Shown here: positions 13,806 through 17,284 of the stretch, piece after piece
Numbering within the stretch: position 1 is the stretch's first letter
Layout of the letters: each line of letters opens with the position of its first letter
Assembly: GCF_002995495.1 (NCBI RefSeq)
Contig: NZ_PVZV01000009.1
Coordinates: 232,888-296,887 of the forward strand
Length of the DNA: 64,000 nt
From: Actinocorallia populi
Lineage (GTDB): Bacteria > Actinomycetota > Actinomycetes > Streptosporangiales > Streptosporangiaceae
Direction: 5' to 3'
Notes under the pieces: model-generated
What the model was told of the DNA's origin: nothing
What the model saw: the letters and a program-made list of their open reading frames with translations, nothing else
The model's database searches: none
Program-made: the position numbers and the translations under genes

Positions 13806-14213
13806 TCAGTGCTCGGCCGCCGACAACCGGTTTTCCTCCAGGCTTTGACCGGTCGTCAGGAGATCCGCTCGAAGCGGGGCCGGTCGTCCCACGAAGTTCC
13901 GTACGGCCTCCTGCAAACGGAGCGGAAGCCGCCGAGCGGCGGGCGCGCCCTGCCGGATCCCCCCGGTCCTCCCCTGCGCCGGTATCGCCTCGGAAGCTCC
14001 TATAGGAGGAGGCGAATGCCCTTCGAGGATCGCAGACCGCAACCGCGTCCAGGTGGCCGAGGACAGCCGCAGGGCCCCGTGGTCGGGGTTGCGCGAGTCC
14101 CGGACCAGCACCGTCTCTCCGTTTCCGGCGACTTCTACGCAGGTATCTTGGTCGGCCGAACGGGTGCTCTTGCGCCAGTGAAGATCCTCGTGGCGAGTCG
14201 GCTGAGCGACCAT
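13806..14213 (-). CDS. DUF397 protein with an unusual C-terminal extension
   Basis: 135 aa. Residues 10-65 are a standard DUF397 domain (LHWRKSTRSADQDTCVEVA, VLVRDSRNPDHGALRLSSATW). DUF397 proteins are usually 55-80 residues and end there. Here the frame stays open for 70 more Pro/Arg/Ala/Leu-rich residues of unknown relationship. DUF397 genes normally sit beside XRE/DUF5753 regulators and act with them in developmental control; the partner at 14389-15273 is on the same strand upstream. The extension may be stop loss or a real domain. Confidence 0.75.
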   Translation of the reverse strand: MVAQPTRHEDLHWRKSTRSADQDTCVEVAGNGETVLVRDSRNPDHGALRLSSATWTRLRSAILEGHSPPPIGASEAIPAQGRTGGIRQGAPAARRLPLRLQEAVRNFVGRPAPLRADLLTTGQSLEENRLSAAEH

Positions 14214-14388: not shown

Positions 14389-15273
14389 CTAGAGACGGTC
14401 GAGTTCTTCTGCTACCTCCAGCATGAACTCCAGTGACTTGTCGGGCGTCATGGCCTCGTCCATCACCTCCTGGTAGTAGGCGCGGTAGTCGCTGACCGGA
14501 TCCAGCCCGCCGGTGATCAGCTGGCTGGCGTCGCGGCCCGCCTCGATGTAGAGCACGTCGTCGAGCGGCCCGTCGAACTCCAGGAGCGTGAAGCCCGCGA
14601 CGTAGAGGCCGGCGTGGAAGCCGACGCCGAACGGGACCACCTGGATCTCGACGCGGGGGTCGGTGCGCGCGATTTCGACGGCGTGGCGGATCTGCCGCTG
14701 CTGGACACCGGGATCGCGCCGGACGCCGATCTGCCGCCGGAGCACCGATTCGTCGAGCAGGAACTGCATCTTCGGAGGGTCGGCCCGTTCGGCCAGATGC
14801 CGCTGGCGCTCCAGTCGGAGCTTGACGGCGGGGCGTGTGGCCGCGGTCGTCTCCTCGCCGGGGCGCGTCGAGAGCACCGCGGCGTAGTCCTCGAGCTGGA
14901 GGAGGCCGGGGAACACGCTGCTGTGGTAGTGGCGCAGGTAGGAGGCGCCCGCCTCGTAGCCCACGAAGGTGAGATAGGCGTCGCGCAGGAGGCCGCGGTA
15001 ACCGGACCACCAGGGGCGTTCGCGCGCGCCGCGGGCGAGCTCCTGCAGCCGCTGCTGCCGTGACTCGGAGGTGACGCCGTAGTGGTTCAGCAGTGCCGAG
15101 AGGTCGGTGCGGGTGATGCCGCTCTTGCCGCCCTCGATCCGGAGCAGTTTCGAAGGACTCCATTCGAGGGCCGCGGCGACCTGCTCCTGCGTGAATCCGG
15201 CGTCTTTCCTGGCGCGTACGATCTCCTCCCGCAGGAGGGCGCTCTCCACGACCGGACCTTGCCCGCTGGGCAC
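14389..15273 (-). CDS. XRE-family regulator with DUF5753 domain
   Basis: 294 aa from GTG at 15273 with AGAGGTGAG upstream. N-terminal helix-turn-helix (LREEIVRARKDAGFTQEQVAAALEWSPSKLLRIEGGK, about 12-50), then the DUF5753 domain (YEAGASYLRHYHSSVFPGLLQLEDYA through DPRVEIQVVPFGVGFHAG). Such proteins pair with DUF397 proteins, and one follows at 14213, although 175 nt away rather than overlapping as usual. A TATAGA -10-like element lies at 15303-15308 on the minus strand. Confidence 0.92.
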   Translation of the reverse strand: MPSGQGPVVESALLREEIVRARKDAGFTQEQVAAALEWSPSKLLRIEGGKSGITRTDLSALLNHYGVTSESRQQRLQELARGARERPWWSGYRGLLRDAYLTFVGYEAGASYLRHYHSSVFPGLLQLEDYAAVLSTRPGEETTAATRPAVKLRLERQRHLAERADPPKMQFLLDESVLRRQIGVRRDPGVQQRQIRHAVEIARTDPRVEIQVVPFGVGFHAGLYVAGFTLLEFDGPLDDVLYIEAGRDASQLITGGLDPVSDYRAYYQEVMDEAMTPDKSLEFMLEVAEELDRL

Positions 15274-15931
15274 TCTCTCACCTCTTTGTCGTCGAACCCT
15301 TCTCTATACGCTCCGTCATCTTGATGGACGGCGTACTGCTTGGTGGCAATCCGCCATCCCTTCCGTCCGGGCAGGTCATGCCGGGCGGAGTGGTGCCTGC
15401 GTCTCCTGTGTCGGGAGACTCACGGTCTCGCCCCGCAGGCTTCCGGGCCGTGCTGGGGATCACTATGTCGGGTTATGATTCGGGTTGTGGTGGTATGCTG
15501 ACATGCAAGTTGCCGGGTAGCAAGTAGCCGCCCAGCACCATGCACCACCATACACCTACCCACGGTGGTGAAGGCCAAGATCCAGAACGTGCGAGGAACC
15601 CGCGTGCGGACCGGGGAACCGGGGAGTGGGCGGGTTCGTCAGAAAAGCAGAATCGCCCCACCCTCCTGATGAATTCCCCGTCGCCAAACTGAGATTCAAA
15701 AGGAGAAAAGCAGGGCGATCCACTTACTCAGCACCAGAGCGGATGTCCACATGCGCCCAGAAACAGTCTTCCGAACGGGGGAATCGTCCCCTCCGACCCT
15801 GCCCATTCTACGTGCGGTCAAGCTCTTCCTGCCAGTGCCTCCCGGGCGTCCGGCGCACGCTGGGCGCCTCTTTCCCCGGAACGGGGGAGAAGCCGCGAAC
15901 AAGGACGCGAACCGCTGGTCCGGGGGCCGAG
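15274..15931. other. 658-bp intergenic region
   Basis: No gene supported. It separates the divergent XRE gene (minus) and the cNMP/cyclase gene (plus). It is less GC-rich than its surroundings and holds a direct repeat (15505-15528), an inverted repeat CACCACC/GGTGGTG (15543-15549 and 15564-15570) and a minus-strand TATAGA element. Frames open through it have no credible start or homology. Confidence 0.6.
15505..15528. repeat. Direct repeat GCAAGTTGC / GCAAGTAGC
   Basis: GCAAGTTGC at 15505-15513 and GCAAGTAGC at 15520-15528, one mismatch, offset 15 bp. Located about 235 bp upstream of the XRE start and about 400 bp upstream of the cyclase start. Possible regulator half-sites; no factor identified. 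Confidence 0.5.
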
Positions 15932-17284
15932 ATGGCCGGGGCTGACGGCGGTCCACCCCGGTTTCGCACGACGGCCCTGGGTGCGGTGTACCTCGCGACG
16001 GTCCTCGTGGGGGCGGGTTTCGGCGGGGTTTACGGCTCGCTGGCGGGCGGTTTCGTGGGAATCTTCGCGATTCCCCTCATCGGTTTCACCCGCGGGCTCA
16101 TGTCCCTCATGGACCAGGCCCGCCCTCTGATGAAGGAGCCCGAGGACGCCGCGCGCCTCATGCAGCAGTTCGCGGGCGCCTATCTGGGCCTGTTCGCGCT
16201 CCTGATCCCCTACCGTCCGCGGCGGCCCGCGGCGGTGGAAGAGCTGCCCGAAATGAGAAAACAACCCGAATGGCCAGAAAAGGACACCAAGGCGATCGGG
16301 GACGGGAGGGAGCGCGGATCCGCGCCGGAGGGGCACGGCGACTTCTGGTCGCGGCTCACCCTGGAGGAGCAGGACGACCTGACCCGGCGCGGGCGCACCG
16401 TGCACTTCGCGGACGGCGCGTCCATCTGCCGCCAGGGCGAGCGGGGCGACCGGGTCTACGTGCTGCGCTCGGGCCGGGTCGAGATCCGCCACGACGACGG
16501 CTCCGGTCCCCGCACGGTCGCCGAGCGCGGCACCGGGGACCTGGTCGGGGAGCGCGCCGCGTTCGAGCTGAGGGAGCGCTCCGCGACGATGGTCGCGATC
16601 GGCCCGGTCGACGCGCTCGTCGTGGAGACCCCGGCGTTCACGGAGTTCGTCGAGCGCCACCCGGCGGTCCTGGAGAAGGTGGAGCGGGGGCTGTACGAGC
16701 GGCTGACCGAACGGCGTCCGGCCGCCCCCTTCCGGTACGCGGGGCAGACCTGCACCATCCTCATGACCGACATCTGCTCCTTCAACGACCCCGGCCGCAC
16801 CGACGTCGACCGCCTCGTCGTCCGCGAGGTCATGTACGGGGCGCTGCGCCGCTCCCTGGAGGGCTCCGGCGTGCCCTGGGACGGCTGCCACCGGGAGGAC
16901 CGCGGCGACGGCGCGCTGGTCATCGTCCCGCCGGCCCTGCCGACGCACGCCGTCCTGCACCCCATGGCCGAGCTGCTGGCCGAGGAGATCGCCGCCCACG
17001 GCCGCCGCGCGTCGCCGGGCGAGCGCCTGGTGCTGCGCCTGGCGGTGGGGGCGGGGCCGGTCGTCCAGGACGGGCAGGGCATGGTCGGCGAGTCGATCAA
17101 CGGCACCGCCAGGCTCCTGGACGCCCCGGCCTTCAAGGCCCGCATGCGCGGAGGCGTCGGCGTCGCGGTCTCCCCCTTCGTCCACGAGAACTTCGTGCGG
17201 CACCTGCCGTTCCGCGAGGAGTACGAGCAGGTCGAGGTGAAGGTGAAGGAGACCAGCACGACCGGCTGGGTCCGCCTCCTGTGA
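15932..17284 (+). CDS. Membrane protein with cyclic-nucleotide-binding and class III cyclase-like domains
   Basis: 450 aa from ATG at 15932; upstream in-frame sequence lacks homology and the ribosome site is weak, so the start is uncertain. Order: two to three membrane segments (about 12-92), a charged linker, a cNMP-binding/Crp-like jelly roll (137-256: SICRQGERGDRVYVLRSGRVEIR, GDLVGERAAFELRERSATMVA), then a class III nucleotide cyclase fold (270-450). In the cyclase fold, metal-type Asp residues lie at 280 (ILMTDICSF) and 326 (RGDGALVIV), and the transition-state pair N390/R394 lies in SINGTARL. The residues expected for catalysis are therefore largely present. cNMP control of cyclase output in one chain is inferred. 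The spacing before GDG differs from classical adenylate cyclases, so substrate and activity are open. Confidence 0.8.
   Translation: MAGADGGPPRFRTTALGAVYLATVLVGAGFGGVYGSLAGGFVGIFAIPLIGFTRGLMSLMDQARPLMKEPEDAARLMQQFAGAYLGLFALLIPYRPRRPAAVEELPEMRKQPEWPEKDTKAIGDGRERGSAPEGHGDFWSRLTLEEQDDLTRRGRTVHFADGASICRQGERGDRVYVLRSGRVEIRHDDGSGPRTVAERGTGDLVGERAAFELRERSATMVAIGPVDALVVETPAFTEFVERHPAVLEKVERGLYERLTERRPAAPFRYAGQTCTILMTDICSFNDPGRTDVDRLVVREVMYGALRRSLEGSGVPWDGCHREDRGDGALVIVPPALPTHAVLHPMAELLAEEIAAHGRRASPGERLVLRLAVGAGPVVQDGQGMVGESINGTARLLDAPAFKARMRGGVGVAVSPFVHENFVRHLPFREEYEQVEVKVKETSTTGWVRLL

Follow-up and report, generated by a model that had tools for sequence, protein, structure and literature searches.

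The gene at positions 15932-17284 (+) of a 64,000-nucleotide stretch of Actinocorallia populi DNA (hereafter the window) encodes in one chain a hydrophobic N-terminal part, a Crp-type cyclic-nucleotide-binding domain (CNBD) and the catalytic fold of a class III nucleotide cyclase, which is too divergent for Pfam family PF00211. On balance we lean towards the interpretation that this protein is a membrane-anchored, single-chain enzyme carrying its own receptor, likely for cGMP, and that it acts as a switchable component of a development or conflict network. Cyclic-nucleotide signals are usually pictured as reaching separate receptors by diffusion from the cyclase; here both reside in one chain, and their pairing is directly testable by comparing fused and split forms of the same cyclase family. 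The gene also lies divergent from a WhiJ/BldB-type gene pair, a link that provides a testable kind of target for such regulators, and the protein together with this pair may be a self-contained signalling unit.

The reading frame is unbroken over 450 codons plus stop. As start we took the in-frame ATG closest to the hydrophobic stretch, with GTG 15626 and ATG 15743 as alternatives further upstream. The protein is laid out as follows.

15932-17284, + strand: coding sequence of 450 residues, with hydrophobic N-terminal part, cNMP-binding domain and class III cyclase (reading frame, domain searches)
15968-16090, + strand: uncharged hydrophobic stretch, residues 13-53, probable membrane hairpin (hydropathy, shuffles)
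16139-16198, + strand: further predicted helix, residues 70-89 (AlphaFold2 model)
16340-16714, + strand: Crp-type CNBD, residues 137-261 (PF00027; fold match to cAMP-bound Vfr)
16547-16585, + strand: phosphate-binding cassette GERAAFELRERSA, residues 206-218, with Glu207 and Arg216 (sequence)
16742-17278, + strand: class III nucleotide cyclase catalytic domain, residues 271-449 (profile, predicted fold)

An earlier note, made from the letters of the DNA, had described such a one-chain combination of membrane part, cNMP-binding domain and cyclase, and PF00027, a family profile and fold searches bear this layout out. Pfam recognises a single domain in the protein, PF00027 (residues 157-243, E-value 4.2e-18, 65.6 bits at a cut-off of 27.5), in the region proposed for cNMP binding. 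The cyclase domain has no match in Pfam or PHROGs, and five NCBIfam matches were obtained, every one below its cut-off. PF00211 has three matches elsewhere in the same genome, none of which is the window gene. A scan of genome contigs for close relatives of the window found none.

The cyclase was recognised by means of a profile. The underlying alignment (A2) joins the window protein to 53 of the 67 stretches listed from relatives and paralogues, giving 54 domains. Searched against PDB chains, this profile ranks class III cyclases first (3mr7, E-value 8.3e-9; soluble guanylyl cyclase beta, 3.3e-5; Ma1120, 4.8e-5), while taken singly nine of the 54 domains match PF00211 weakly, at best with an E-value of 0.0084. 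Since CNBD matches dominated the fold search with the full-length model, the cyclase domain was also folded alone, which gave a mean predicted local distance difference test (pLDDT) of 96.7. VIA-align places Ma1120 (5d0h) at the top for this model (Z 17.9, root mean square deviation (rmsd) 2.2, 157 residues aligned), with Cya2 at Z 16.7 and rmsd 2.7 over 170 residues. Foldseek has Cya2 as top match (E-value 9.8e-10), and the 50 matches listed by VIA-align are all nucleotide cyclases, presumably all of class III. The full-length AlphaFold2 model has a predicted template modelling score of 0.53, so its placement of the domains relative to one another is unreliable. The lack of a profile hit to the cyclase fold, on which the earlier note had let its call hinge, is real for PF00211; the 54-domain profile and the fold searches do find the fold, and the structure prediction that the note proposed as a check supports it.

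The residues on which catalysis and base recognition would depend are retained as listed here, with their conservation among the 54 aligned domains.

16769-16771, + strand: Asp280, first metal Asp (54 of 54)
16907-16909, + strand: Asp326, second metal Asp (53 of 54)
17111-17113, + strand: Arg394, transition-state Arg (54 of 54)
17246-17248, + strand: Lys439, candidate triphosphate-binding Lys (54 of 54)
16895-16897, + strand: Glu322, base-specificity position (51 of 54)
17078-17080, + strand: Gly383, second base-specificity position (53 of 54)

The triphosphate-binding role of the Lys439 position we take to be that of mammalian cyclases. Asp280, Asp326, Asn390 and Arg394 stand where they had been placed from sequence, and the transition-state Asn and Arg are both present in the window protein; as a pair they do not characterise the family, since Asn390 is found in 17 of the 54 domains and Ile in 33. 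Across 22 far relatives Asp326 and Arg394 are invariant, and Asp280 is retained in 21, Gly383 in 19 and Lys439 in 18. The position of Glu322 is Lys in adenylyl cyclases and Glu in guanylyl cyclases. The window protein has the guanylyl type of pair, Glu at the Lys position and Gly at the Asp position (Glu322/Gly383). In HMMER alignments, counted by eye, soluble guanylyl cyclase beta has Glu opposite Glu322 and Cys opposite Gly383, and 3mr7 has Lys opposite Glu322. Cya2 reads its base with the same Glu-Gly pair (PMC4215837, PMC4886424), so GTP is a first guess as substrate. The Tyr that enhances guanylyl activity in Cya2 (PMC4215837) corresponds, mapped by hand, to Ala393 in the window protein.

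The model of the CNBD superposes on cAMP-bound Vfr with Z 18.9 and rmsd 1.4 over 119 residues. Both marks of a Crp-type cNMP-binding domain are present, the PF00027 match and the Glu and Arg of the cassette; Glu207 and Arg216 are kept in all 48 rows with CNBD and cyclase fused, window included. The PADLOC profile of PycTIR matches the CNBD of the window protein (E-value 8.3e-18) and likewise nine relatives scanned with it (1.1e-17 to 1.7e-10); a tenth protein, an EAD1/TIR relative lacking a CNBD, gave no such match. The PADLOC PycC profile PDLC00734 itself seems to contain a CNBD, as its positions 28-158 fall on that domain.

What this domain may do is suggested by the company it keeps in relatives. 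In four loci (L041, L042, L043 and L045) a CNBD, a Crp-type helix-turn-helix (HTH) and the cyclase are found in one chain, with PF13545 (HTH_Crp_2) E-values of 1.9e-14, 1.1e-8, 3.3e-14 and 6.8e-8, respectively. At the level of the class 20 loci were fetched, of which 14 were not chosen for a CNBD neighbour and six (L131-L135, L146) were picked knowing of it. Among the 14 unselected loci, seven (L143, L144, L145, L147-L150) have a CNBD gene directly upstream on the same strand; L142, whose CNBD gene lies 661 bases upstream, is counted outside these seven, and the remaining six have no such gene. The knowingly picked loci, kept out of this count, show a CNBD gene directly upstream on the same strand in L131-L135 and a divergent one in L146. 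All 14 separate CNBD genes scanned carry both PF00027 and PF13545, and a loose form of the cassette Glu...Arg pattern matches ten of them. Because of this gene fusion and neighbourhood with Crp-type genes, the CNBD looks like a receptor for the product of the cyclase. The earlier note had missed these relatives, as well as the Glu322/Gly383 pair and the divergent gene pair described below.

The window protein is probably membrane-bound, judging by its N-terminal part. Residues 13-53 form a run of 41 residues devoid of Arg, Lys, Asp and Glu, which was matched by five of 20,000 shuffles. The hydropathy plot has two peaks, beginning at residues 15 and 35; two such peaks were also given by 349 of 5,000 shuffles, and by themselves they are weak evidence for membrane passes, the uncharged run being stronger. 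Arg10 and Arg12 precede the stretch and Arg54 follows it, a pattern expected of a hairpin whose two ends are cytoplasmic, and no extracellular domain is apparent in the protein. A stretch resembling the further helix of residues 70-89 was seen by eye in L034, L080, L082 and L084. A hydrophobic stretch ahead of the CNBD occurs in 27 of 68 rows of the cyclase tree, from 25 genomes as counted by their handles, where the label denotes a single hydropathy maximum exceeding 1.45 ahead of that domain rather than a proven hairpin.

The family recurs among related actinobacteria and varies in form. The protein has matches at 1e-8 in 78 of 149 relatives, many of them to the CNBD alone. At 1e-30, 91 of 341 genomes of the family contain a match, and at class level 49 of 296 genomes are hit by the cyclase profile at 1e-25. 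The fetched loci contain 48 rows in which CNBD and cyclase are fused, window included, and the idea that the fusion is unique was rejected. The earlier note had presented the joining of the two as exceptional, a view that these rows do not sustain; the linkage of a cyclase gene with a CNBD gene was moreover known from XC_0250/XC_0249 of Xanthomonas (PMC3770947). For trees and alignments, 18 short loci duplicating longer fetched ones were excluded. Alignment A1 holds 36 of the 38 two-domain stretches listed plus six cyclase-only ones, L004 (the window gene itself) and L076 being out and long-linker forms having been dropped by script. In the tree of 68 cyclase domains the window protein stands beside L037, of the same genus, with support 96, and the three-part form (hydrophobic stretch, CNBD, cyclase) requires ten changes; judged from these sequences, the parts of this family are often swapped. 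Among the titles and abstract openings listed by searches of the open-access literature, none describes the hydrophobic-CNBD-cyclase form; the survey of actinobacterial cyclases PMC2447327 was covered through its abstract and references.

Upstream of the cyclase gene the window shows the arrangement of a WhiJ/BldB-type locus, an XRE-DUF5753 gene followed by a DUF397 gene. A coaA-like gene, named by eye, is also among the neighbours.

14389-15273, - strand: XRE-DUF5753 (WhiJ-type) regulator, divergent neighbour (PF19054 2.3e-41, PF13560 5e-12)
13806-14213, - strand: small DUF397 (BldB-type) protein, on the far side of the XRE gene (PF04149 2.8e-15)
15274-15931, no strand: divergent promoter region of the XRE and cyclase genes (position between genes)

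Loci L034-L118 had been chosen by similarity to the window protein before this adjacency was known. Scanning loci of at least 5,000 bases and part of the window, we found an XRE-DUF5753 gene divergent within 800 bases, with DUF397 beyond it, at 16 of 61 cyclase open reading frames (the window and 15 of the 60 others); in L048 the DUF397 strand differs. Given 34, 66 and 47 DUF5753 matches in three genomes, about 0.28 such loci would be expected among 61. Because seven of the 16 lie in a common neighbour cluster, we treat them as a single context, so that about ten contexts are left. The binomial probability is 5.7e-24 for 16 of 61 and 1e-14 for 10 of 45; both values ignore relatedness and take their densities from those three genomes, all of which hold XRE-linked loci, and 45 is an approximate number, counted by eye once syntenic loci had been merged. 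Cyclases beside XRE-DUF397 pairs are likewise described in none of the titles and abstract openings listed by the literature searches, and the association appears to be new.

For regulation by such a pair there is a parallel in Streptomyces venezuelae, where iosA is activated through WhiJ9, which binds the intergenic region that the two genes share (PMC10294661). The iosA-whiJ9-bldB9 locus resembles the window in having a target gene, a shared intergenic region, an XRE-type regulator and a DUF397 gene, the divergence of iosA and whiJ9 being our reading of the text of that paper; it differs in its target, which is IosA there and a cyclase here. XRE/DUF397 pairs have also been proposed as toxin-antitoxin pairs, and overexpression of 14 of the DUF397 proteins is reported to cause no clear toxicity in S. 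coelicolor (PMC10364602). No DNA motif common to the 16 divergent intergenic regions was found; their most frequent words were GC-rich or had the look of copies from related loci. Between the XRE and cyclase genes of the window, two near-identical direct repeats of eight bases were noticed by eye, CAAGTTGC at 15506-15513 and CAAGTAGC at 15521-15528, which make a candidate regulator site; the other 15 regions have scattered single matches to related patterns and no pair.

Taken as a mechanism, the preferred interpretation would run as follows. The divergent XRE/DUF397 pair would switch transcription of the cyclase gene, and the protein would dimerise at the membrane. Its C-terminal cyclase would then make a 3',5'-cyclic mononucleotide, most likely cGMP, which the CNBD, one linker away, would bind at short range; the ligand-bound CNBD would in turn change the cyclase dimer (feedback), the membrane stretch, or both. 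These two are the presumed targets because neither Pfam nor the model finds an output domain in the chain besides CNBD and cyclase. With expression set by a WhiJ/BldB-type pair, a switchable signalling component of a development or conflict network would be the most likely role. A bolder version, which we regard as unlikely, makes the protein a self-triggering membrane switch, with enzyme, receptor and effector in a single WhiJ/BldB-switched chain, in the development or phage defence of multicellular actinobacteria. If true, this switch would be the membrane-bound, fused form of a broader system in actinobacteria that couples a divergent cyclase to a Crp-type receptor.

Several observations weigh against this interpretation. 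The full-length AlphaFold2 model draws residues 13-63 as a single helix with no hairpin, so that the hairpin is a preference rather than a result. The substrate remains a guess: at the Glu322 position the 22 far relatives have Glu in four cases and otherwise Gln, Ala, Ser, Thr, Asn or Asp, and Ma1120 in its Glu-Gly-Tyr mutant form accepted both ATP and GTP equally (PMC4215837). The cassette Glu...Arg pattern was not found in the Crp-type genes of L131, L132, L133 and L142. L037, the nearest cyclase domain by the tree and itself XRE-linked, has neither CNBD nor hydrophobic stretch, and the parts, being reshuffled in this manner, need not form one machine. An XRE neighbour is found at a minority of the cyclase open reading frames (16 of 61) and at none of the 22 class-level ones outside the near relatives, and WhiJ-type repeats common to the 16 intergenic regions were not found.

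A rival explanation, close to the product feedback that the earlier note proposed, is that of a housekeeping class III cyclase with plain product feedback, in which the CNBD senses the bulk cyclic nucleotide and tunes its synthesis while the hydrophobic part is an anchor only. In agreement with this, the chain showed no further domain, and there is a precedent in CyaB2 of Anabaena, where binding of cAMP to GAF domains of the same chain raises cyclase activity (PMC4411481); by this analogy product feedback as such is plausible. CyaB2 likewise joins a product-binding domain and a cyclase in one chain, but the domains are GAF rather than Crp-type, and no membrane part is mentioned in the part of that paper covered here. 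The CNBDs of our relatives, however, sit in receptors with outputs of their own, a DNA-binding domain or a separate Crp-type gene, and the XRE-DUF397, NB-ARC/TPR and TIR company is unlike that of a housekeeping enzyme. Gene and domain context thus disfavours this explanation, which we consider possible yet doubtful. Still much less probable is a pseudoenzyme, a sensor or scaffold whose cyclase domain merely binds nucleotide: the patchy conservation of Asn390 would suit it, but the metal Asps, Arg394 and Lys439 are each kept in at least 53 of the 54 domains, and Ma1120 is active with Ala replacing this Asn (PMC4215837).

The ingredients of the protein also recall Pycsar, in which PycC is combined with PycTM or PycTIR (PMC11224242). 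In a one-chain effector of this kind, infection would trigger synthesis of a cyclic (pyrimidine) nucleotide, the CNBD would bind it, and the membrane part would oligomerise and breach the membrane. CNBD, membrane part and class III cyclase are common to both, the membrane part being as in PycTM (PMC11224242); the PycTIR profile match given above points the same way, as does the fold match of the CNBD to that of cUMP-bound PycTIR (8jsk, Z 18.0), though with rmsd 6.4 over 138 residues and level with entries for CRP and HCN. Fusions of this cyclase family to EAD1/TIR and NB-ARC/TPR would also fit such an effector. The PycTIR and PycC profile matches reported for the window protein, however, cover the CNBD only; PDLC00734 matches five of the 54 cyclase domains weakly (best 0.0056). 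The cyclase is closer to Ma1120 and Cya2 than to PycC 7r65 (Z 15.5, rmsd 3.1, 8% identity, rank 46 among the matches listed), and the 15 PDB sequences that the cyclase profile retrieves include no PycC chain, findings that nevertheless leave room for Pycsar-like action. Pycsar has a separate cyclase and receptor and pyrimidine-reading residues (PMC11224242), whereas the window protein is one chain. Mapped by hand from the offset to the metal Asp, its Glu322 would fall at D94 of BcPycC or R142 of EaPycC, and on this mapping the base-reading residues would differ from the PycC ones named in that paper. No phage family was matched in the PHROGs search, and none of the 20 records of a plasmid search covers 80% of the window protein. 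Adjacent separate cyclase and receptor genes are lacking at this locus, and membership of Pycsar is not claimed. We judge such an effector improbable, and less likely than the membrane-anchored enzyme with its own receptor.

Other characterised systems share part of the design. Cya2 of Synechocystis and Ma1120 of Mycobacterium avium have the same fold, the two metal Asps and the Arg, and Cya2 has the Glu/Gly pair as well (PMC4215837), while the window cyclase is too distant in sequence for PF00211. The cGMP-CRP cyst pathway of Rhodospirillum centenum also uses a CRP-type cGMP receptor (PMC3770947); there, as in Xanthomonas, enzyme and receptor are separate, whereas the window protein is one chain with a hydrophobic N-terminal part. 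Actinobacterial conflict systems with cNMP cyclase domains beside EADs and other conflict partners were described by Kaur et al. in 2020 and 2021 (PMC7159879, PMC8195603). The likeness is one of domain type, and in the parts of these papers covered we met no protein combining hydrophobic part, CNBD and cyclase.

Conflict-type partners of the cyclase family itself are found in several relatives. In L115 a cyclase of the same family is fused to NB-ARC/TPR. Cyclase, TIR_2 and EAD1 are found in one chain in five open reading frames, EAD1 being just below its cut-off in one of them.

L137:4373-6256, with cyclase, EAD1 and TIR_2
L137:6393-7823, with cyclase, EAD1 and TIR_2
L138:4714-6369, with cyclase, EAD1 and TIR_2
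L140:3387-4742, with cyclase, EAD1 and TIR_2
L140:4794-6893, with cyclase, EAD1 and TIR_2

By analogy, such a cyclase-TIR chain is a possible one-protein counterpart of PycC plus PycTIR. A frame of 1494 residues (L043:6845-11326) holds CNBD, Crp-type HTH, cyclase and TPRs, with NTPase matches (NB-ARC, AAA_16) below their cut-offs. Near the CNBD-cyclase genes of L079 and L081 there are large genes which loose BLAST clustering groups with this TPR-containing protein. The proteins of L041, L042, L045 and L139 end in short tails rich in Gly, Asp and Asn, seen by eye, for instance GDLVMGNKN in L042 and GDQIAGDKN in L139.

A second type of neighbourhood was observed at L035, L082, L084, L086, L092, L103 and the own-genome paralogue L101 (on C4), the last of which encodes a cyclase that has a hydrophobic part and lacks a CNBD. 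Here the cyclase stands beside GntR-UTRA, GNAT, DUF6292 and a small ribbon-helix-helix-like gene, not all four at every locus, with Pfam run on the L101 neighbours only and the ribbon-helix-helix named by eye.

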